From a virus: 23,452 nt of DNA. A model generated the notes under the pieces. It did not search any database, was not told where the DNA came from, and worked only from the letters and a program-made list of their open reading frames with translations. The translations under genes and the position numbers were made by a program. The DNA lies in IMG/VR virus record IMGVR_UViG_3300022696_000090, positions 1-23,452 of that record, one strand, 5' to 3'. Shown here piece after piece: positions 2,976-13,389 of this stretch. Within the stretch, counting starts at the first letter, position 1. The number at the start of each line of letters is the position of its first letter.

Positions 2976-3024
2976 CCCCGACGTCTCTCGAGGCCGCTCC
3001 GCTCCGTACCCGCAAGGGTCGGGG
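2976..3024 (+). terminator. Hairpin after the 67-aa gene, possible weak terminator
   Basis: CCCCGAC (2976-2982) pairs with GTCGGGG (3018-3024), and ACCC-GCAA-GGGT (3008-3019) makes a GNRA-looped inner hairpin that competes for three bases. Only CTTTC follows, so termination would be inefficient. It could instead be a leader structure for the next gene. Confidence 0.3.
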
Positions 3025-3043
3025 CTTTCGGGGTGTGAGTACC

Positions 3044-3262
3044 ATGCCAAACCCCGTCATCATCGCCCACGAGACCTGGACTGGCACTGAGACCATCGAA
3101 ACGAGCGCGTCGATTGTCGACATCGAGATCTCCGTGCTCGCCGATCACTGGGAGTCGCAGGGCGAGGACGCCGCCATGCTGCGCACCGCCCGCGAGACTG
3201 CCCCGGGTGTCTGGACTCTCGACGACGGCACCACGATCGCCCGCGCGAAGGGGATGGCATGA
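3044..3262 (+). CDS. 72-aa protein of unknown function
   Basis: The predicted protein is acidic (VDIEISVLADHWESQGEDAAML, then WTLDDGTTIARAKGMA) with no motif I can name. An in-frame GTG at 3035 would add three residues; the ATG at 3044 is better spaced from the upstream GGGG, but neither start has a strong ribosome binding site. Its TGA overlaps the ATG of a short pentapeptide-like frame (ATGA at 3259), which supports translation. Codon use looks like the surrounding phage genes. Confidence 0.55.
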   Translation: MPNPVIIAHETWTGTETIETSASIVDIEISVLADHWESQGEDAAMLRTARETAPGVWTLDDGTTIARAKGMA

Positions 3263-3659: not shown

Positions 3660-3828
3660 CCGCGCGTTTTGGCCCAGGTCCTGGTCCGGGTCCAGGCCCA
3701 GGTCCGGGTCCGGGTCCTGGTCCTGGTCCAGGTCCTGGTCCGGGTCCGGGTCCGGGTCCTGGTCCGAGTCCGAGTCCGAGTCCGAGTCCTGGTCCTGGTC
3801 CGGGTCCAGGTCTGGGAAGGGGGACTGA
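3652..3828 (+). CDS. Possible 58-aa Ser-X repeat peptide coupled to terL
   Basis: This frame begins at an ATG that overlaps the stop of the LSm-like gene by 8 bases and ends at a TGA overlapping the terL ATG (TGATG, 3826-3830). The peptide reads (W/G/R/E)-S repeats through the hexamer array, for example SGSWSWSRSWSGSGSG. The overlaps at both ends suggest ribosomes may traverse it to reach terL. Against this, terL has its own good Shine-Dalgarno sequence (GGAAGGGGG). Variation among units falls on the first codon base in this frame, not the third, so there is no sign of selection on the peptide. Confidence 0.3.
   Translation: MHSRAFWPRSWSGSRPRSGSGSWSWSRSWSGSGSGSWSESESESESWSWSGSRSGKGD
3671..3814. 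repeat. Hexanucleotide GGTCCN tandem repeat, 24 units
   Basis: Twenty-four consecutive 6-mers run without interruption. Seventeen are GGTCCN, two are GGCCCA, four are AGTCCN (3767-3790), and the last is a degenerate GGTCTG. The last base varies as G, T or A. No reading frame on either strand is interrupted, so long artefactual frames arise on both strands. The repeat ends 13 bp before the terL start and just before its ribosome binding site. Confidence 0.95.
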
Positions 3829-5168
3829 TGCTTGACACCGCCGCCCTCGCCCGCCTCGTCTCGAGGCCGAACGTAGACCACCGCAAGCTCCTCGAGTGGG
3901 TTGTCCGGGACCATGCCGTGTTGGCCCGCCCGGAGCAGCTCCGCCCGCCGGACGCGGGGCGGTGGTGGTATATCCAGGCCGGACGGCGGTGGGGCAAAAC
4001 CTTCGCGGGCGCGAACTACACGCTCGACCTGATGGAGCGCTGGGGGCCCGACTTCTTCGGCGGCGCGTGCTCCAAAAACATGGACGAAGTGCGATATACC
4101 ATGCTCGAGGGCCCATCGGGCATGGTCACGATGGCGAAGCGGCGCGGGTACGAGATCGACTGGCAATCCGGCAACGGCCTCGCGATCCACCCGTCGGGCG
4201 CGAGACTACGGACGTTTTCCGGCGAACGCGAAGAGGTGCGAGGTATGGACGCGTCCTACTGGTGGCTGGACGAGCTGCCTTGGTGGAAGGCGCCGGTCGC
4301 GAGTTGGATCAACATCAACACGACGCTATCGCGCCGGTCACCACCTCCGGGACCGCACGGGGTCATCACGTCGAGCCCGCGCAAGCGATCCGCGATCAAT
4401 CAAAAACTCGCGCGGATGGTGGACGAAGGCGACGTCTACCTCGTCCGCGGCGCGACGAGCGACAACGCGGTGAACCTGGACCCGAACTTTTTGAAGAAGC
4501 AGCTCCGGGAAATGCAGGATCGCCAGGGTCGGTGGACGCAGACCGGCCGGCAGGAATGGCTCGGCGAGTTCCTGGACGACGGCGACGGCGGGTGGTCCCG
4601 CGAGATGATCGACGATCACCGCATCGAGGTCACGCCTTCGAGGGCGCTGGACGACATCGTGGTGGGGTACGACCCCGCAGTCACAGACACGAAGACGTCC
4701 GACGACTCGGGGATCGTCGCGGTCGGTCTTTGGCGCGATCACCAGTACGTGCTCGCGGATCGGACGCAGAGCGAGACGTCGCCCGTAGATGCGTGCGCTG
4801 TCGCGATCCGGCTCGCCAACGAGCTAGGAGAGCGGCACCACTGCCGCGCGCGCCTGGTCATCGAGGACAACCAGGGCAAGGATATGCTCCGCACGATTGT
4901 GCGCATGGCATCGGAGTTGCAAGGACTGCCCGAGCCCGACTACCAACTCGTCACCGCGACGAAGAGCAAGTCGGCCCGAGCCGAGGCCGCCGTCAATCTA
5001 TGGGAGCGCGGGTTGTGCTACATGGTGGGCGAGTTCCCCGAGCTCGAAGACCAGATGGTCGAGTGGGCCCCCGGCGGGAGCTCACCCGACCGTATGGACG
5101 CGCTCGTGCACGCGCAGCTGGCGATCGACGCCCGATCGAGCGGCGGCTCGCTTTTCTCTGGCTATTAG
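3828..5168 (+). CDS. terL: Terminase large subunit (packaging ATPase/nuclease)
   Basis: A 446-residue protein. The Walker A motif is GRRWGKT at residues 52-58, the phage-terminase variant. Walker B is YWWLDE at 144-149, with catalytic E149, and a TSSPRKRS coupling segment follows. The RNase H-like nuclease has D282 in VGYDPAVTD, E346-D347 in VIEDNQGKD and D421/D424 in PDRMDALVHA. All elements of a complete motor are present. It drives genome packaging into proheads and cuts the concatemer. The ATG at 3828 is chosen for GGAAGGGGG 6-7 nt upstream and the TGATG overlap. The frame is open further upstream only because of the hexamer repeat. No portal gene follows, which is unusual. Confidence 0.95.
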   Translation: MLDTAALARLVSRPNVDHRKLLEWVVRDHAVLARPEQLRPPDAGRWWYIQAGRRWGKTFAGANYTLDLMERWGPDFFGGACSKNMDEVRYTMLEGPSGMVTMAKRRGYEIDWQSGNGLAIHPSGARLRTFSGEREEVRGMDASYWWLDELPWWKAPVASWININTTLSRRSPPPGPHGVITSSPRKRSAINQKLARMVDEGDVYLVRGATSDNAVNLDPNFLKKQLREMQDRQGRWTQTGRQEWLGEFLDDGDGGWSREMIDDHRIEVTPSRALDDIVVGYDPAVTDTKTSDDSGIVAVGLWRDHQYVLADRTQSETSPVDACAVAIRLANELGERHHCRARLVIEDNQGKDMLRTIVRMASELQGLPEPDYQLVTATKSKSARAEAAVNLWERGLCYMVGEFPELEDQMVEWAPGGSSPDRMDALVHAQLAIDARSSGGSLFSGY

Positions 5169-5177
5169 GCCCGATCG

Positions 5178-5186
5178 TGGTATACT
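5178..5186 (+). promoter_or_regulatory. Extended -10 promoter TGGTATACT
   Basis: TG-G-TATACT is a near-perfect extended -10 box just after the terL stop. No good -35 is present (TGGCTA at a 16-bp spacing). The ATG of the next gene lies 9 nt downstream, so the transcript would have almost no leader. Confidence 0.6.
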
Positions 5187-5195
5187 GCGACGAGC

Positions 5196-5642
5196 ATGAA
5201 AAAGGCCGAACTAGTCGAGGAGCTCGAGCAGGCACGAAAAAAGATCGCCGCGCTCGAGATCGAGCTGTCGAACCGGGAACACGACCGCGAAGACGACGTG
5301 ATCCCGGACACGACGTGGGCACAACTCCGAGCAGCGCTCGAGGGTCGGGCCGGCCTCGACGCCGACCACATGGACTTGGTCGGCGAGGCGGCCAAGGTCG
5401 TGACCGCGTATGACGCGATCCCGGACGGTGTGGAAGAGATCGCCGGGACCGTGTGGGCCTACACCGAAGGCGCGACCGACGAAGTGTGCGAGGAGGTGAC
5501 CGAAGCGTTCGAGCTGCTCCAGGCGTGGCGGGCGCACAATCTGGACGAGCTCGCTTCCGAGCTCTGGCGCTTGGGGCTGCTGAGGAACGGCATCTCGCTG
5601 TTTGAAGCGCTAGAATCCCTACTGTATAGCAGGTCAGCATGA
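5196..5642 (+). CDS. 148-aa protein with N-terminal coiled coil, unknown function
   Basis: Residues 1-32 (MKKAELVEELEQARKKIAAL and on) form a heptad-patterned coiled coil. The rest is acidic and helical (DLVGEAAKVVTAYDAI, EVCEEVTEAFELLQAW, LDELASELWRLGLLR). I do not recognise a family. It occupies the slot immediately after terL where a portal gene is normal, but is far too short and lacks portal features. It has its own extended -10 promoter and overlaps the next gene by four bases (ATGA), so it may form a toxin/antitoxin-like or regulatory pair with the ribbon-helix-helix protein downstream. That pairing is speculative. Confidence 0.7.
   Translation: MKKAELVEELEQARKKIAALEIELSNREHDREDDVIPDTTWAQLRAALEGRAGLDADHMDLVGEAAKVVTAYDAIPDGVEEIAGTVWAYTEGATDEVCEEVTEAFELLQAWRAHNLDELASELWRLGLLRNGISLFEALESLLYSRSA
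5602..5630 (+). promoter_or_regulatory. Promoter TTGAAG-N17-TATAGC for the small ribbon-helix-helix gene
   Basis: TTGAAG 5602-5607, 17 bp, TATAGC 5625-5630, with TG immediately before the -10. It lies inside the 3' end of the preceding gene and 8 nt before the next ATG (5639). The spacing matches the other leaderless-type promoters in this window. Confidence 0.5.
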
Positions 5643-5821
5643 GCGACCTGTACCGCGGAACCCGGAAGCACGTGCAGTTCAAGCTGCGCGGCGACCTTTA
5701 CGCGCTCATCGAGCGGACCTACCCGGGGCAGTCCGTGAACACCGCCGCGCGGGACCTGCTAGAGGAACTACTGCAGCGCGATCTCGACGCCGAGCGCGGC
5801 GAGCCTGTCTCGGATCTCTAG
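5639..5821 (+). CDS. 60-aa ribbon-helix-helix protein
   Basis: The pattern KHVQFKLRGDLYALIERTYPGQSVNTAARDLLEELLQRDLD (about residues 10-50) fits a ribbon-helix-helix fold. One basic/hydrophobic strand (VQFKL) is followed by two helices separated by the PGQSVN turn. Such proteins are dimeric repressors or antitoxins. It starts with an ATGA overlap on the upstream gene and has a promoter of its own. Its last 54 bases overlap the 3' end of the converging kinase-like gene on the other strand, with no terminator between them. It may act on the divergent promoters at 6498-6548, but this is only suggested by proximity. Confidence 0.65.
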   Translation: MSDLYRGTRKHVQFKLRGDLYALIERTYPGQSVNTAARDLLEELLQRDLDAERGEPVSDL

Positions 5822-6139
5822 CCAGATCTTGGCACAGCCCTTGCCCATGCGCGCCTGCCCGGGCGTGAGAGCGATCCACGGCTTCGAGAGCCAGATCACG
5901 CGGTCGCACGGTTTTGCGCCTGGGTGCAGCGCCATGAACTTGCGCAACGCGCGGACGGTAGCCGTTCCCTCGATGACCCACGGCCCAGGCTCGGTCATCC
6001 ACTCGTCCGCGACGATCCGAGAGCACTCGGACCAGTCCGCCTCGCCGATGAGGTCGTCGGTGTGCATGACCCGCCCGCCGAGCTTATCGGCGAGCGTGGT
6101 CTTTCCTACGCGAGGACCGCCGGCGATCACGACTCGCAC
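5768..6139 (-). CDS. P-loop kinase-like protein, 123 aa
   Basis: The N-terminus MRVVIAGGPRVGKTTLADKLG carries a Walker A motif GGPRVGKT at residues 7-14. HTDDLIG (about 26-32) sits where small kinases have their DD/DxD substrate motif, and PWVIEGTATVRALRK matches the lid-side helix of adenylate/shikimate-kinase-like folds. RVIWLSKPW provides a later core strand. It probably phosphorylates a small metabolite or nucleotide, but the substrate cannot be told. It is short, and the adenine-binding C-terminal helix looks abbreviated. The GTG start at 6139 overlaps the upstream gene's TAG (TAGTG), so it is the second gene of a minus-strand pair. It is convergent with, and overlaps, the 5639-5821 gene. 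Confidence 0.75.
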   Translation of the reverse strand: MRVVIAGGPRVGKTTLADKLGGRVMHTDDLIGEADWSECSRIVADEWMTEPGPWVIEGTATVRALRKFMALHPGAKPCDRVIWLSKPWIALTPGQARMGKGCAKIWLEIRDRLAALGVEIALQ

Positions 6140-6489
6140 TACGCATCCTCTTTAGAGGCGAGGAGATCGCATCGTTCAAGCTGCGTTTCATAGGCCTCGA
6201 CAAGCGTGGCCAACACTTCGATCCTGTCTTCGTGAGCCGCTTTTGGCTTCTCCCGGTTCATGCGCGCAAGTCGATCGATTTCCCGAAGGCTTCTTTCGTA
6301 CTCCTGCTCGTTCTTGATCGACGGCGCCCCCTCTTTAGGGGCGAGAGCACCCATGATGATCTGCCGGTACAGCTCCGCCCTTGTGATCCCCCGCACGAGT
6401 GCGGCGTCTACGGCGCGGTGGTGCACCTCCCACGGGACACGCGTGGACGCGATAGGTCGAGCTCCCTGGCCTGGTTTGTTGCGGTTCAT
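6139..6489 (-). CDS. Ribbon-helix-helix DNA-binding protein with acidic helical tail
   Basis: A 116-residue protein. Residues about 14-49 (STRVPWEVHHRAVDAALVRGITRAELYRQIIMGAL) match a ribbon-helix-helix: strand STRVPW, helix EVHHRAVDAALVRG, turn ITRAELYR, second helix. A helical tail follows (EYERSLREIDRLARM, EVLATLVEAYETQLE) and may mediate oligomerisation. The start ATG at 6489 lies 8 nt after a good -10 box, and only GAG stands in as ribosome binding site, so the mRNA is probably leaderless. It is the first gene of the minus-strand pair and is divergent from the head operon. It is a good candidate for a repressor of one or both promoters at 6498-6548. Confidence 0.75.
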   Translation of the reverse strand: MNRNKPGQGARPIASTRVPWEVHHRAVDAALVRGITRAELYRQIIMGALAPKEGAPSIKNEQEYERSLREIDRLARMNREKPKAAHEDRIEVLATLVEAYETQLERCDLLASKEDA

Positions 6490-6497
6490 ACGCTCAC

Positions 6498-6525
6498 AGA
6501 TTACACGGTGGCCCGGGACTTGCAA
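6498..6525 (-). promoter_or_regulatory. Minus-strand promoter TTGCAA-N16-TAATCT
   Basis: On the minus strand, TTGCAA (6525-6520), 16 bp, TAATCT (6503-6498), with TG directly before the -10. The ATG at 6489 follows after 8 nt. The -35 hexamer TTGCAA is its own reverse complement and also serves the plus-strand promoter at 6520-6548. Confidence 0.65.
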
Positions 6526-6548
6526 CATACCGGCCCGGCGAGTAGAAT
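6520..6548 (+). promoter_or_regulatory. Head-operon promoter TTGCAA-N17-TAGAAT, sharing its -35 with the divergent promoter
   Basis: TTGCAA 6520-6525, 17 bp, TAGAAT 6543-6548. The ATG at 6555 is 6 nt downstream, predicting a leaderless transcript. This is the only clear promoter ahead of the head genes, so it probably drives the capsid and neck operon. Polymerase cannot occupy both promoters at once if both use the same palindromic hexamer. Confidence 0.65.
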
Positions 6549-6554
6549 GCGCAC

Positions 6555-6764
6555 ATGCCCGATCCGTCCCTCGAGGAGCAGATCCAGAGCGTCCGCGAAG
6601 CCGTTGCTGAGCTGAGCGACGGCAAGTGGGACAAAGGCGATGCGAAGGCGATCGTTGTCCTGGCCGGCGCGCTCGCTGCGTTCCTCGCCCTCGGTCTCGA
6701 GGCCGCGCACATGGCAGGTTTGTTTGCTGACGATCCGGTCGAGGCGAGCACCGATGGTGGTTGA
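6555..6764 (+). CDS. 69-aa small membrane protein
   Basis: The N-terminus is an acidic amphipathic helix (LEEQIQSVREAVAELSDGKWDKGD). Residues about 32-54 (AIVVLAGALAAFLALGLEAAHMAGL) form one transmembrane segment, and a short acidic tail follows. This is the first gene of the head operon, beginning 6 nt after the -10 box. Coiled helix plus a single membrane segment occurs in XhlA-like holin accessories and other phage membrane proteins; a precise role cannot be assigned. The next small gene starts inside it, with an 11-base overlap. Confidence 0.65.
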   Translation: MPDPSLEEQIQSVREAVAELSDGKWDKGDAKAIVVLAGALAAFLALGLEAAHMAGLFADDPVEASTDGG

Positions 6765-6894
6765 CATCCTGGCTGTACCCGGCGCGCCGGGGCACGTGGA
6801 AGCGCGCAGAAACCGCTGGGCACGTCTCGCACGTCTCCGGGGTGCGGCGCGCAAACGCGCGATTGCGTCTCGGGTTCGGAGGGCGACGCAATGA
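6754..6894 (+). CDS. 46-aa arginine-rich protein
   Basis: The ATG at 6754 overlaps the upstream gene by 11 bases, and the TGA overlaps the protease gene ATG (ATGA at 6891), so the frame forms a continuous translational chain between two well-supported genes. The product is strongly basic: after MVVDILAVPGAPGHV it is dominated by arginine and alanine (EARRNRWARLARLRGAARKR and on). Such a short basic peptide could bind nucleic acid or be a capsid accessory. It could also serve merely to couple translation. No family is recognised. Confidence 0.5.
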   Translation: MVVDILAVPGAPGHVEARRNRWARLARLRGAARKRAIASRVRRATQ

Positions 6895-8108
6895 CGCGCG
6901 TCATGCGCATCGACCGGTTGTCGTGCGTTCTCGACTTCGACGCGCCAGCGCCGTCGCCGCAGGCGGCGAGTGCGCGATACACCGACGAGGGTTTCCTCGT
7001 GGTGGACGCGTATCTAGCGCGTGATGGCCTGCTCCAGTACTCCGACGGGACGCGCGTGTGGAACGAGTACCGGCCCGCGAGCGAGCTCGCTGCCGCCGCC
7101 GACTCGTTCCAGCACGCGCCGATCACGGACGACCATCCGCCGGAAATGGTAACGGCCGCGAACGCTAGTCAGTACGTGCGAGGCGTCGTTTTGAACGATG
7201 TCCGGACGGAAACGCTCGACGGTGTGACTTATCTCCGAGGGACGCTCCGGGTCATGGACGCGGCCCTAATCCAGAAGATCCACGACGGCCAGCGCGAACT
7301 CTCCATCGGTATGTGGAGTCGCGTCGAAGTCCGGGACGGTGTGTATCGCGGCGAGCGTTTCGACGCGGTACAAACCGACTGTGAGGGTAATCACCTCGCG
7401 TCGGTTCAACGAGGGCGTGCTGGTTCGTCCGTCCGCGTGTTTATGGACAATGCGCAGATCCCGGTCCATTATGGGGGGGCAATCACGATGGCAAAACCGA
7501 GCACCGATCCGCAACCCGAACGCCAGGACGAGGTAGGCGCGCCAGTCACGGAGGCGAAACTCGTCGGCCCCGACGGCCAAGAGATCATGGTCCCGACGTG
7601 GGTCGCTGCCGCGGTCGAGGAACTCCGCGAGATGCGCGAGAAGCAGGCCGCCGCTGAAGAGCCCGCTGAAGAGCCCGCTGAAGAGCCCGCTGAAGAGCCC
7701 GCTGAAGAGCCTGTCGAGCCCGCCGAGCCTGTCGAAGATGAAGACGAAGACGACGAAGAGATGAGCATGGACGAAATCAACCGACGAGTACGCCGGCGCG
7801 TCCGGCTGGAACGCCTTGCGCTGCGAGCTGACCTGGACGTCGACGCTATGGACGATGCAGGGGACGACGATCTCGCGCGCGCTTTCGTGGCGTCGGTCAT
7901 GCCACGCCACAAGGATCGCGCCGACAAAGCGGCCGGAGAGGTGCTTGATGCCCTCGTCGAGATCGCTTCGGCTGAGCTTGCCGCACGGCCTAAGCCCGAA
8001 GCGGCGAACCCGTTCGAGCGCCGGCGCAAGGTCGCCGATGCGGATGATGACCCTATCGCGGCAGCCGAAGTCCGCGCCATTGCCCGATCCCTCGGGCTGC
8101 AGGAGTAA
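6891..8108 (+). CDS. Prohead protease/scaffold fusion, DUF2213-like
   Basis: A 405-residue protein. Residues about 25-200 carry the DUF2213 pattern: ARYTDEGFLVVDAYLARDGLLQYSDG, VWNEYRPASEL, HAPITDDHPPEMV, RGVVLNDVRTE, YLRGTLRVMDAAL, GQRELSIGMWSRVEV. H and S of DDHPP and ELSIG are the likely catalytic residues. After about residue 205 it becomes a helical, acidic scaffold with an EEPA repeat (about 254-274) and a poly-acidic stretch, as expected for a scaffold clipped during maturation. A possible internal start at 7489 (ATGGCAAAACCG) would yield a separate scaffold protein. The ATGA overlap at 6891 couples it to the upstream gene. The decoration and capsid genes follow directly. Confidence 0.85.
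   Translation: MTRVMRIDRLSCVLDFDAPAPSPQAASARYTDEGFLVVDAYLARDGLLQYSDGTRVWNEYRPASELAAAADSFQHAPITDDHPPEMVTAANASQYVRGVVLNDVRTETLDGVTYLRGTLRVMDAALIQKIHDGQRELSIGMWSRVEVRDGVYRGERFDAVQTDCEGNHLASVQRGRAGSSVRVFMDNAQIPVHYGGAITMAKPSTDPQPERQDEVGAPVTEAKLVGPDGQEIMVPTWVAAAVEELREMREKQAAAEEPAEEPAEEPAEEPAEEPVEPAEPVEDEDEDDEEMSMDEINRRVRRRVRLERLALRADLDVDAMDDAGDDDLARAFVASVMPRHKDRADKAAGEVLDALVEIASAELAARPKPEAANPFERRRKVADADDDPIAAAEVRAIARSLGLQE
7653..7712 (+). repeat. 12-bp tandem repeat GCTGAAGAGCCC, five copies
   Basis: Five head-to-tail copies in frame encode (AEEP)5 in the scaffold region of the protease protein; the fifth ends in CCT. The copies are otherwise identical at the DNA level, which suggests recent slippage expansion. 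Confidence 0.95.
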
Positions 8109-8111
8109 GAG

Positions 8112-9290
8112 ATGCAGACCACGTATAACGCCGCGCACGCGACCGCAGTCGAGGGTACCGCCCTCGCCTGCCGACAGTCCCGACCGCTCACTCTGCCCCA
8201 GCTAGAGCAGATCTCGCTGGTCACCGTCACCGGCGGGAGCGAGACCGATGACCTGGTCATCACGTTCACCGATGACGTGACGTCGCAGTCCTACACTCTC
8301 ACCGCGACCGGTAGCGCGACCGAGGCGACGCTCCTGAGCAACGCTCAGGACGCCTTCGACGTGCACGATCAGCTGCCGATGCTGTTCGACCTTGCCGGCG
8401 AGGTATCCGGCGGGGACGTGCTCCTGACGTTCACCGCCAAGAACTCGAACCGGAGCTACAGCATCTCCGCTACCGGCGGTACCGCGGTCGCAGACCCGGT
8501 CGTGACGAACACCCAAGACCCCGGAGGGTCCGGTGTCGAGTTCGGTCGGTTCGTCCGTTTCGGCGACGAGGCCGGGACCTTCGACGCGCTCGCTAGCGAC
8601 ACCGCTGCGGACGACATCGCCGGCGTGTTGTTTCGGACCGACGGTAACCACTTCCGGTCGACCGACGGCGGCACCGCATCGAGCACCGACCGAGCCGAGC
8701 GGGGCAAAACCTACTCCATCATGGAGCAGGGTCGCTGCTACATGAAGGCCGAAGGCGCGATCGCCCGCGGTGACAAACTGTACGCCAGGCGAGCACTCAC
8801 TTCGAGCGCTGGCGCTGTCGGCCGGGTCCGTGCCACCCCGGCCGGCGGCGCTCAAGCCTCGACTCTCGGGCCCGTCGCAGACCAGCCGGAATACGGAGTC
8901 GCGTTCGAGATCCTCGACAGCTCCGGTGTTCGCCGACGGTTCGCCGCGAGCTACACCCCGACCGACGGCACCACCTCCGTTGCTGACGCCGTCGACGGGT
9001 TGTACGACGCGATCGTAGACCAGCTCGGTGCCGCCGATTCGGCCACCAACGGGTTCGGGATCACCGTGACCGAGTCCTCGACCCTGGTCACGCTCACGAC
9101 CGACGCCGGGTACGAGATCCTTAGCCTGGAATGTACGACGTGGGCCGACGACACCGAGGCCGCGACCGTCGCCGCCACCCTAGGCACCGCAGACGCCGAT
9201 GCCATCTACGTTGGCGATTTTGCCACGGCACAAGGCGCCGCGGCCGATGGCGAGCTCGTAATCGTCAAGATCCACATGGGAGCGCAGTAA
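8112..9290 (+). CDS. Capsid decoration/cement protein with two beta-rich insert domains
   Basis: A 392-residue protein between the protease/scaffold and the capsid gene, the normal position of a DUF2190-like cement protein. The cement-like core lies at about 140-255: GRFVRFGDEAGTFDAL, DDIAGVLFRTDG, YSIMEQGRCYMKAEGAIARGDKLYARR. On either side is a beta-strand/helix/beta-strand module, at residues about 34-133 (LVITFTDDVTSQSYTLTA, LLSNAQDAFDV, DVLLTFTAKNSN) and about 260-365 (YGVAFEILDSSGVRRRF, VADAVDGLYDAIVDQL, TLVTLTTDAGYEI). Related modules appear in the neck and sheath proteins. Family length is usually 110-150 residues, so this is much enlarged. It ends with a TAATG overlap on the capsid gene. 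Confidence 0.7.
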   Translation: MQTTYNAAHATAVEGTALACRQSRPLTLPQLEQISLVTVTGGSETDDLVITFTDDVTSQSYTLTATGSATEATLLSNAQDAFDVHDQLPMLFDLAGEVSGGDVLLTFTAKNSNRSYSISATGGTAVADPVVTNTQDPGGSGVEFGRFVRFGDEAGTFDALASDTAADDIAGVLFRTDGNHFRSTDGGTASSTDRAERGKTYSIMEQGRCYMKAEGAIARGDKLYARRALTSSAGAVGRVRATPAGGAQASTLGPVADQPEYGVAFEILDSSGVRRRFAASYTPTDGTTSVADAVDGLYDAIVDQLGAADSATNGFGITVTESSTLVTLTTDAGYEILSLECTTWADDTEAATVAATLGTADADAIYVGDFATAQGAAADGELVIVKIHMGAQ

Positions 9291-10372
9291 TGAACGAAAA
9301 GCACAAACGACTTCGCGACGCCTACGCCGACGTGTTCCCGAGCAAGCAGGCGGTGGAAGCTGTCCTGGACGCCGCGGGACGTCAGGGGCGCCTGGATTGG
9401 GAGCTCGCGCCGCTCATGGCCGAGCGTCTGCGGCACGTCTACCCGCAGATCATGGAGACGGTCTACCCCGAGCTGCTCGCAGCGAACGGCGGAGTCCTTC
9501 CCATCGATTCGAGCCCCAGCCCGGCGGATGAGACGTATCGGTACTACCTGATCGACCAGCAGGGCAAAGCCGACTGGATCGACGACGACGGCACTTTCGC
9601 GCCGTCTAACTCCGCGACGCTTCGTCAGTTTGACGGGCGCATGGCCGAGTTCGGTCACAAGTGGGATGTGACGATCTTCGATCTCGAACGCGCCGCCCAG
9701 CACCCGAGCATGAACCTCCAGGTCATGAAGGGCCGGATGGCGAAGCGGGCCCACGACGAGTGGAAAAACTGGGTGTGGCTGTTCGGCGACAAGAAGAAGG
9801 AGCTCGAAGGGCTCTGCAATAACCCCGACGTCGCTCACTTCCTTGCGCCGCTGAACGGGGGAGCGTCCAGCCGGCTGTGGGCCAACAAGACCGACGCCGA
9901 GATGATGGCGGACGTCGAGGAGCTGATCGATTCGATCCCCGACCGGACCAAGCGAGCCTACTTTGCGGCCACCGTGTTCATGCCGCTCAGCCTCGTGCAA
10001 GAGGCCAAGAGCCGCTACATCTCCGCCACCGCGTCCGGCAACGTCACGGTGTGGGACCGGATGCTCGCGCGGTACAGCGGCGACGAGACCGGCCAGATGC
10101 GGGTCGAGTTCAAGATCCTGAACGAGTGCGCCGCGGCCTTCCGCGTCGACCCGAAGACCGGGACCGACACCAGCGGGCTCGAGGGGGACTTCATGATGGC
10201 GCTACCTGCCGCGGACGCGTCGATGCTGGCGTTTGTCCAGGCTCGTCCGTTCTCGCAGCGGCCTCCGCAGGAGGAGGATCTCAAGATCAAAACGCTGACT
10301 CACGAGAAGATCGGCGGCTGTCGGTGCCAGATCCCGCAGGCCGTTTCGGTTATGCGCTTCGGCACTACCTGA
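9290..10372 (+). CDS. Major capsid protein, DUF2184-like
   Basis: A 360-residue protein. It has the HK97-fold pattern seen in DUF2184-type capsid proteins. AEFGHKWDVTIFDLERA leads into the spine-helix region. WLFGDKKKELEGLCNNPDVAHFLAP is the typical sentence for subunit self-recognition. WANKTDAEMMADVEELIDSIPDRTKRAYFAATVFMPLSLVQEA is the P-domain, and the segment before the C-terminus is a beta-rich A-domain. The start ATG at 9290 overlaps the upstream TAA (TAATG) with GGGAGCG as ribosome binding site. The next 118 bp are non-coding with strong inverted repeats, so the transcript may partly end here and give extra capsid mRNA. The family call rests on pattern and position. Confidence 0.85.
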   Translation: MNEKHKRLRDAYADVFPSKQAVEAVLDAAGRQGRLDWELAPLMAERLRHVYPQIMETVYPELLAANGGVLPIDSSPSPADETYRYYLIDQQGKADWIDDDGTFAPSNSATLRQFDGRMAEFGHKWDVTIFDLERAAQHPSMNLQVMKGRMAKRAHDEWKNWVWLFGDKKKELEGLCNNPDVAHFLAPLNGGASSRLWANKTDAEMMADVEELIDSIPDRTKRAYFAATVFMPLSLVQEAKSRYISATASGNVTVWDRMLARYSGDETGQMRVEFKILNECAAAFRVDPKTGTDTSGLEGDFMMALPAADASMLAFVQARPFSQRPPQEEDLKIKTLTHEKIGGCRCQIPQAVSVMRFGTT

Positions 10373-12386: not shown

Positions 12387-12751
12387 TCCCTGTCGGCGGG
12401 CTGGTCGATGTGATCCCGGCGTCGACGGTCACCGTCCGAACGTGGTCGGGCGGGTCGATCGACGAGTACGGCTCGTACAGCGCCAGTGGTGAGACGGACA
12501 CCACCGAGACGATGCCTGTGCACCCGGCGACGTCCCGCCGGTTCCGCGAGATGTTACCCGAGGCAGTTCGGGACCGCGAGACGATCGCCCTCTACCCTCG
12601 AGCTGGGTCGGCGCTGTCTAGGGCGTCGGGCGTGCGCTCGCCAGAGGTTCAATACGGCGGGCGTTGGTATACGGTCACCGCGGACGGGGACTACGAAACG
12701 CTAGGGGGTATTCGCCTCGTGCTCGCGATCTTGAAGGACACCACGTCATGA
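12383..12751 (+). CDS. Head-closure/neck protein
   Basis: A 122-residue beta-rich protein. TVTVRTWSGGSIDEYGSYSASG, TMPVHPATSRRFREMLPEAVRDRETIALYP and SPEVQYGGRWYTVTADGDYETLGGIRLVLAIL match the usual layout of phage head-closure proteins: an N-terminal strand pair, a PEG/AxR loop near the middle and a GRxYxVxxxxDxxxxGxxRxVLA ending. It would seal the connector channel and join the tail-completion ring. The GTG at 12383 is supported by GGAGGAGGA 6-7 nt upstream and by the GTGA overlap. It overlaps the serine-protease gene by ATGA. Confidence 0.7.
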   Translation: MIPVGGLVDVIPASTVTVRTWSGGSIDEYGSYSASGETDTTETMPVHPATSRRFREMLPEAVRDRETIALYPRAGSALSRASGVRSPEVQYGGRWYTVTADGDYETLGGIRLVLAILKDTTS

Positions 12752-13389
12752 TCCATCGAATCTTACCGATCCTGTTGTTGCTCTTGGCGAGCTGCGCTCA
12801 AGTGACGCGTCTGCCCCCGAACGACCCTCCCGAAACCGGGACGCTCGCAGAGCGCACGCACAAAGCCGTAGTGCTGATCGCCTACGGCCCGCGCGTTCAC
12901 GGGTCAGGTTTCGCCGTTTCCCCGAATCAGATCCTCACGGCGAAGCACGTCGTAGAGGACGCGAGTCAGGCCGCGATGGCGGAGATCGTGACCGAAGACG
13001 GGCAGACGTGCACACCCGTGGGGATCCGTGCGTCGAGAGATCAAGATTACTCGATTCTGACCGTCACCGGATGCCGGCTGTCGTGGTTGCGCATGCGCTC
13101 ATCGCCTGCGGTGCTCGGAGAAGATGTGTACCTTGCCGGCCACCCGTACGAGGATCGTCAGACCTGGACTCGGGGTGTAGTGTCGAATGTGTTCGACGGC
13201 AAAAACAAGATCGGGGTTGACGCGGTCGCGCTCCCCGGTATGTCCGGCGGGCCTGCGGTAGACGCTGACGGGTACGTGATCGGCATCGTCTCCTTCGGCG
13301 AGCTTGCGATCGGGCTCAACCCGGCCCACCGCCGTGTGTGGGGTGGGCAGACGTTCCTGGTGCCTACCGCGGAGATCCTGATCCGATGA
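12748..13389 (+). CDS. Trypsin-like serine protease with lipoprotein signal peptide
   Basis: A 213-residue protein. Residues 1-16 form a lipoprotein signal with lipobox LASC, the modified residue being Cys16 (IHRILPILLLLLASC). The catalytic triad of a chymotrypsin/HtrA-like fold is complete: H67 in LTAKHVVED, D100 in RDQDYSIL and S166 in GMSGGPAV. HGSGFAVSP at 51-59 supplies the N-terminal barrel, and C88-C109 could form a disulphide. There is no PDZ domain. It is overlapped by ATGA on both sides within the neck genes, so it is expressed with the virion. Likely a membrane-anchored periplasmic protease. A role in host envelope alteration, superinfection exclusion or lysis is possible. The site of action is inferred from the signal only. 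Confidence 0.9.
   Translation: MIHRILPILLLLLASCAQVTRLPPNDPPETGTLAERTHKAVVLIAYGPRVHGSGFAVSPNQILTAKHVVEDASQAAMAEIVTEDGQTCTPVGIRASRDQDYSILTVTGCRLSWLRMRSSPAVLGEDVYLAGHPYEDRQTWTRGVVSNVFDGKNKIGVDAVALPGMSGGPAVDADGYVIGIVSFGELAIGLNPAHRRVWGGQTFLVPTAEILIR

Follow-up and report, generated by a model that had tools for sequence, protein, structure and literature searches.

We find that the 65-bp region between the head operon and a two-gene minus-strand cassette of a 23,452-bp IMG/VR phage contig (the whole stretch of DNA analysed, hereafter the window) holds two promoter-like elements that point in opposite directions and share one palindromic −35 hexamer, TTGCAA, as borne out both by the sequence geometry and by shuffle tests. 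The feature is real and was correctly described in the original prediction; the interpretation placed on it, that of a compact genetic switch making the two operons mutually exclusive, overreached. Our own reading, which we put forward tentatively, is that of a compact divergent promoter serving a regulator cassette on the opposite strand, possibly with both directions repressed together. What makes the site interesting is the recurrence of such promoters beside ribbon-helix-helix (RHH) genes, together with its leaderless layout, and not a switch.

RESULTS

Two promoter-like elements share a palindromic hexamer within the head module

The window (GC 64.5%) covers a head and contractile-tail region whose products include the terminase large subunit, a DUF2213 head maturation protease, a cement protein, the major capsid protein, sheath, and baseplate hub and wedge (Table 1). 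The true start of the major capsid protein ORF is probably near 9290, and that of the terminase probably lies downstream of positions 3669-3830, where a simple repeat in the 5' part of the frame is read as a long stretch of alternating Val-Arg/Leu-Val. We recognised no portal gene in its usual position between terminase and protease (3669-8108) or in a PHROGs scan of 20 window proteins, and the PF06381 portal model has no match on the contig; the contig may be a fragment. The tail region also encodes a serine-protease-like protein with a lipoprotein-like start (12664-13389, phrog_9683). For the first gene on the head side, a 69-aa ORF, no relatives were found in viral contigs.

TTGCAA is its own reverse complement; exactly at the predicted coordinates, 17 bp separate it from TAGAAT on the head side and 16 bp from the minus-strand TAATCT. 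Scored against the sigma-70 consensus, TTGCAA matches at 4/6 positions on each strand, TAGAAT at 5/6 and TAATCT at 3/6, the last nevertheless fitting the looser TANNNT. Because of this low −10 score the minus promoter is missing from a standard promoter scan, which lists the plus promoter (9/12); by our own count the minus one reaches 7/12. No more than six hexamers can reach 4/6 or better against TTGACA on both strands. Judged by sequence, the site belongs with divergent overlapping promoters, i.e. opposed −35/−10 pairs with overlapping elements. The GGCCCGG repeats that flank the hexamer might, at a stretch, be candidate operator arms; neither the arms nor dyad symmetry beyond the hexamer is significant (P about 0.06-0.07), and GGCCCGG occurs five times in the window.

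Table 1. Features of the window that are discussed in the text
Feature	Position	Strand	Remarks
60-aa protein	5639..5821	+	originally called a second RHH protein; 54-nt overlap with the kinase-like gene at the latter's 3' end
TATACT directly after TGG (extended −10-like)	5181..5186	+	9 nt before ATG 5196; third near-leaderless signal
123-aa small P-loop (kinase-like) protein	5768..6139	−	GTG start overlaps the preceding gene's stop by 1 nt
116-aa protein	6139..6489	−	first cassette gene; by eye RHH plus C-terminal helices
Divergent intergenic region, 65 bp	6490..6554	both	holds both promoter-like elements
TAATCT, −10-like	6498..6503	−	minus-strand promoter; before ATG 6489
GGCCCGG repeat	6510-6516 and 6532-6538		GGCC cores 11 bp to the left and right of the TTGCAA dyad
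TTGCAA palindromic hexamer	6520..6525	both	−35 position of both promoter-like elements
Alternative in-frame ATG	6526..6528	−	abuts hexamer; start ambiguity
TAGAAT, −10-like	6543..6548	+	head-side promoter; before ATG 6555
69-aa ORF with hydrophobic stretch	6555..6764	+	first gene on head side
Head maturation protease	6891..8108	+	DUF2213, phrog_530
Capsid cement-like protein	8112..9290	+	PF22758
Major capsid protein ORF	9131..10372	+	PF09950, phrog_264

The arrangement is unlikely to arise by chance

The criteria of the chance test, which were set after the site had been seen, were a score of 4/6 or better for the hexamer on both strands and a TANNNT 16-18 bp away on each side. The TTGCAA site is the one arrangement in the window that matches, and none appeared in 300 dinucleotide shuffles of the whole window or in 20,000 local shuffles of 105 bp; when the −35 is relaxed to 3/6, 0.053 arrangements are expected per window. 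TTGCAA alone is not rare (2 copies in the window vs 1.68 expected), and none of the 43 other loci compared has the arrangement. Of 296 Actinomycetota genomes, one has the full leaderless geometry, both ATGs included and at most one mismatch allowed; the backward control likewise gave one hit. Judged by the shuffles, a shared-hexamer divergent pair is unlikely to have come about by chance.

Both directions have a predicted near-leaderless layout

Overlooked in the original prediction was the short distance to the start codons: the gap to the following ATG is 6 nt for TAGAAT and 8 nt for TAATCT, and both mRNAs would hence be nearly leaderless. Shine-Dalgarno (SD) pairing is weak on both sides (−3.1 kcal/mol plus, −1.9 kcal/mol minus). 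Across the 30 window positions scored, two of which are not start codons, TANNNT at 5-10 nt was found at only three (6555, 6489 and 5196), with strong SD pairing instead at many other starts (e.g. 6891, 8112, 12383, 16179 and 16914). In Mycobacterium tuberculosis the centre of TANNNT lies 7-12 bp upstream of where transcription starts, no −35 is conserved, and leaderless genes make up 22-26% of the total (PMC3898074). Since the layout in the window matches this TANNNT rule and SD pairing is weak, the simplest reading would be two nearly leaderless mRNAs with predicted starts about 65 bp apart; both sides have the marks of a leaderless-type promoter, namely TANNNT at start-codon distance and weak SD pairing, the start sites being predicted. 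Note that in hosts with TANNNT promoters the −35 may be of little weight, which weakens arguments resting on the shared hexamer.

The plus-strand genes upstream of the cassette end at 5821, and between there and 6554 we found no convincing plus-strand terminator: the best candidate (6062-6109) is a GC-rich hairpin with a tail of only TTTCCTAC, and a second one (6453-6473) has a weak, unconvincing stem. It is therefore possible that upstream transcription reaches the head genes by read-through.

The cassette encodes a putative regulator and a P-loop protein with relatives in packaging modules

Codon-position GC backs both cassette ORFs as genes. The product of the first one had been called a probable repressor, and the 60-aa protein encoded nearby a second RHH protein; both calls come from reading the sequence, and neither protein has an RHH family match in Pfam at E<=10 or in NCBIfam. 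The Arc and RHH_1 models match nothing on the contig, and alignment to known RHH proteins with hhalign gives about 1% probability for each protein, with the 116-aa protein aligned in register. The structure model of the 116-aa protein is poor (pLDDT 51; helices 20-32 and 37-48 at low confidence, no strand in the monomer) and yields no fold match at E<=0.001, nor does the sequence match solved structures. PHROG matches are confined to its C-terminal part: phrog_10398 (unknown) and phrog_1373 ('transcriptional regulator'). No relatives of the protein were found in viral contigs or phages, and the best hits in four further genomes or records (E 0.03) are unconvincing. Given the missing RHH model match, the 1% profile score and the poor structure model, the repressor assignment is a lead, not a result.

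Relatives of the P-loop protein were found in one viral contig and in one phage record. In the former (L012, 4001-5941), a P-loop kinase-like domain that is 46% identical to that of the window is fused in-frame to the N-terminus of the large terminase (646 aa); in the latter (L013, 4941-5390 of the unrelated phage MW202476), the relative lies directly behind the portal gene and is annotated as 'ADP-ribosylation factor-binding protein'. As both relatives are on the packaging strand, the P-loop protein tracks packaging modules, and this placement suits cooperation with the head genes better than exclusion. A two-row P-loop profile, run without a positive control, hit none of 396 Actinomycetota genomes.

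Relatives of the head module lack the cassette

According to the original prediction, absence of the shared hexamer from relatives would count against it. The nearest head-module relative (L003) has neither the cassette nor a single TTGCAA in 10.6 kb; this result is not decisive because, at 42% identity in the protease, L003 is too distant. No relative carrying the minus-strand cassette was found, single queries with the capsid and terminase proteins returned no relatives in viral contigs, and megablast of the window against phages returned nothing. A DUF2213 search of genome contigs produced 32 loci, the best with 38% identity over residues 13-215, and none of them has the shared-hexamer arrangement.

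TTGCAA-sharing divergent promoters recur beside RHH genes

We searched for the pattern ATTNTA-17-TTGCAA-17-TANAAT, using the same letters at 23/23 spacing as a control. Viral contigs contain at least 120 such stretches vs 31 at the control spacing, but this fourfold-or-more enrichment was rejected after dereplication and a gene-overlap check: 38 rows belong to one cluster, the matches listed collapse into 50 clusters vs 24 for the control, and 27 of the 50 clusters among the matches listed lie inside predicted genes (16 of 24 in the control). Since one cluster contributes so many rows and most matches fall inside genes, we claim the RHH association alone and no general enrichment. An RHH gene is located within 330 nt in 46 of the 120 rows among the matches listed vs 0 of 31 control rows (P=4e-6); counted by cluster, the association is not significant (5/50 among the matches listed vs 0/24; P=0.17), and the RHH profile used for both counts was built partly from the counted clusters' own proteins.

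ORFs with an ATG and an SD sequence flank the pattern on both sides in seven clusters among the matches listed, and five of these seven consist of a small RHH gene and a divergent partner. In the L047 cluster the RHH gene faces an OrfB-like gene (by eye), with GIY-YIG in member L048; in L063 and L049 it faces an HNH gene; L051 and L155 likewise pair an RHH gene with a divergent partner. The RHH proteins of four of these five pass Pfam cut-offs, that of L155 having a weak Arc match only. Another locus, L151, has near 3002-3053 a near-perfect palindrome whose centre is ACTATTGCAATAGT and which takes in both −10 boxes of a divergent pair; this pair adjoins an ORF in which a P-loop-like motif can be read by eye.

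In 299 Bacillota genomes the pattern occurs at 15 places in 13 genomes, and a TGTACA centre instead of TTGCAA at none. Four of the 15 places (three distinct ones once two near-identical copies in one genome are merged) lie beside an RHH_3-like gene, a family with 63 places overall in the same genomes; the corresponding chance rate, 2.4e-5 per site, is an estimate that assumes a mean genome size. This count is independent of the viral RHH profile and probably reflects one mobile-element family. In L204 (Bacillota) and the L047 cluster alike, the common TTGCAA promoter stands between a small RHH_3 gene and the OrfB/TnpB-like gene that faces it; the L204 partner is an OrfB/IS605-type gene, and the arrangement is possibly that of a regulated mobile element.

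We inspected 20 of the 63 RHH_3 places. Four of the five stand-alone RHH_3 genes with an intact spacer have TTGCAA, the fifth (L247) having TTGAAG at the same place. Three places cut by contig ends (L244, L252 and L253) and two with another reading context (L248 and L249) were set aside, and 10 weaker members of the family (L254-L263) do not have the shared geometry; L257 has TTGCAA upstream, not established as shared. Among phage RHH relatives selected by protein, L264 keeps the geometry with TGTAAA in place of TTGCAA, L213 and L212 have TTGCAA upstream, not established as a common centre, and L265 and L266 are without it. Recurrent cases are mainly AT-rich, as opposed to the GC-rich window. 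In the open-access literature searched we found no report of RHH proteins together with TTGCAA, or with TnpB and divergent promoters, and nothing useful on CopG operators or on RHH proteins with homing endonucleases; print may differ.

DISCUSSION

The closest parallels to the site in the window are three phage loci in which RHH/HNH pairs lie between terminase and portal (L063), behind portal and minor head protein (L049), or between portal and protease (Staphylococcus phage S-CoN_Ph26, L264; 17/16 spacing). As in the window, the regulator gene of all three is on the strand opposite the structural genes and inside the head module, and in L063 and L049 the divergent promoters also have TTGCAA as their common centre. 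The window differs in that a P-loop protein follows the regulator and an endonuclease is absent, in that this regulator has no RHH family match, and in that its promoters are leaderless-type and GC-rich. By analogy, these loci suggest that the window cassette is a lodged opposite-strand regulator unit, the shared promoter of which would restore expression of the genes behind it. Loci where RHH_3 genes face OrfB/TnpB-like or GIY-YIG genes (the L047 cluster, L204 and related Bacillota) resemble the window in a small gene of RHH type, read as such by eye in the window, and in TTGCAA, in their case with 17/17 spacing, but are SD-led mobile elements in AT-rich DNA that drive no head genes.

The E. 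coli bidirectional promoters of Warman and Grainger offer a mechanistic comparison. These are single short near-symmetric sequences from which polymerase initiates both ways without simultaneous occupancy; the −10 is common, starts are 18 (or 10, 23) bp apart, and the authors place separate divergent promoters outside the class (PMC12825309). By this account, simultaneous polymerase occupancy would be equally impossible at the window site, but here it is the −35 that is common, while the −10s are separate (39 bp between them) and the predicted starts about 65 bp apart, and the site falls outside the bidirectional class in Warman's sense. The original argument that only one polymerase can use the hexamer at a time holds in so far as steric exclusion at initiation is plausible; however, with just 65 bp between the two ATGs, such exclusion would be expected even if no hexamer were shared.

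We envisage, tentatively, two housekeeping-type promoters placed back to back in 65 bp, with the palindromic −35 in common and near-leaderless mRNAs. The minus direction would drive the regulator/P-loop cassette lodged in the head module, and the plus direction would act as a local promoter for the head genes. CopG/Arc-type RHH autorepressors are small regulators that, as dimers, bind across the promoter of their own gene. The first cassette protein, unlike them, shows no sequence membership in the group; it would most likely repress its own promoter and, given the symmetry of the core, transcription in both directions at once, in line with what is expected of RHH-autoregulated cassettes. The two polymerases would exclude each other at the moment of initiation only, and at ordinary activity the outcome would be weak interference rather than an either/or switch.

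Less probable, but still a serious candidate, is a plain divergent pair: two independent constitutive leaderless promoters within 65 bp that the first cassette protein does not regulate, TTGCAA being simply the least costly way for a −35 to read TTG on either strand. The small number of suitable hexamers, the missing RHH family match of the window protein, and the lack of an RHH neighbour at 45 of the 50 clusters among the matches listed and at 11 of the 15 Bacillota places all fit this account; the RHH pairing in five of the seven truly divergent-looking clusters among the matches listed (L047, L063, L049, L051 and L155) does not.

It is improbable that just the plus promoter, or no promoter at all, is real and that the minus gene starts at ATG 6528, in which case the minus 'promoter' would fall inside the gene and its −10 would be coincidental. 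This would explain the 3/6 score of that −10 and the in-frame ATG abutting the hexamer, and is helped by the minor role of −35 elements in hosts with TANNNT promoters (PMC3898074). Yet ATG 6528 has no TANNNT within 40 nt upstream and no strong SD (−2.5 kcal/mol), the cassette must have some promoter nearby, and both the empty shuffles and the presence of TANNNT at leaderless distance on both sides speak against coincidence.

Least probable of all is the genetic switch, in which polymerase competition for the one hexamer common to both promoters, together with a repressor, would make head genes and cassette mutually exclusive: that overlapping promoters exclude each other sterically is accepted, and one direction can be repressed when the other is strongly activated, but among the E. 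coli bidirectional promoters competition appeared only under such activation, the basal activity of all five tested having been too low for it (PMC12825309), and the window adds possible read-through into the head genes past unconvincing terminators, no operator or confirmed repressor, and a kinase-like protein whose relatives sit in packaging modules.

The divergent, possibly co-repressed cassette promoter that we favour can be placed in a wider frame, which we consider rather unlikely as a whole: a TTGCAA-centred −35 might be a recurrent, convergently used control element at which an array of RHH-type regulator dimers shuts both directions. In this frame the regulators would be opposite-strand units inserted in phage head operons and in mobile elements, and the window would be a leaderless high-GC version whose packaging-linked P-loop protein stands in place of the endonuclease. 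Should the element work in the way we propose, it would show phages taming foreign regulator cassettes inserted in their head operons while structural expression stays intact, and would extend the rules of bidirectional promoters, derived from shared −10 elements, to a shared −35.
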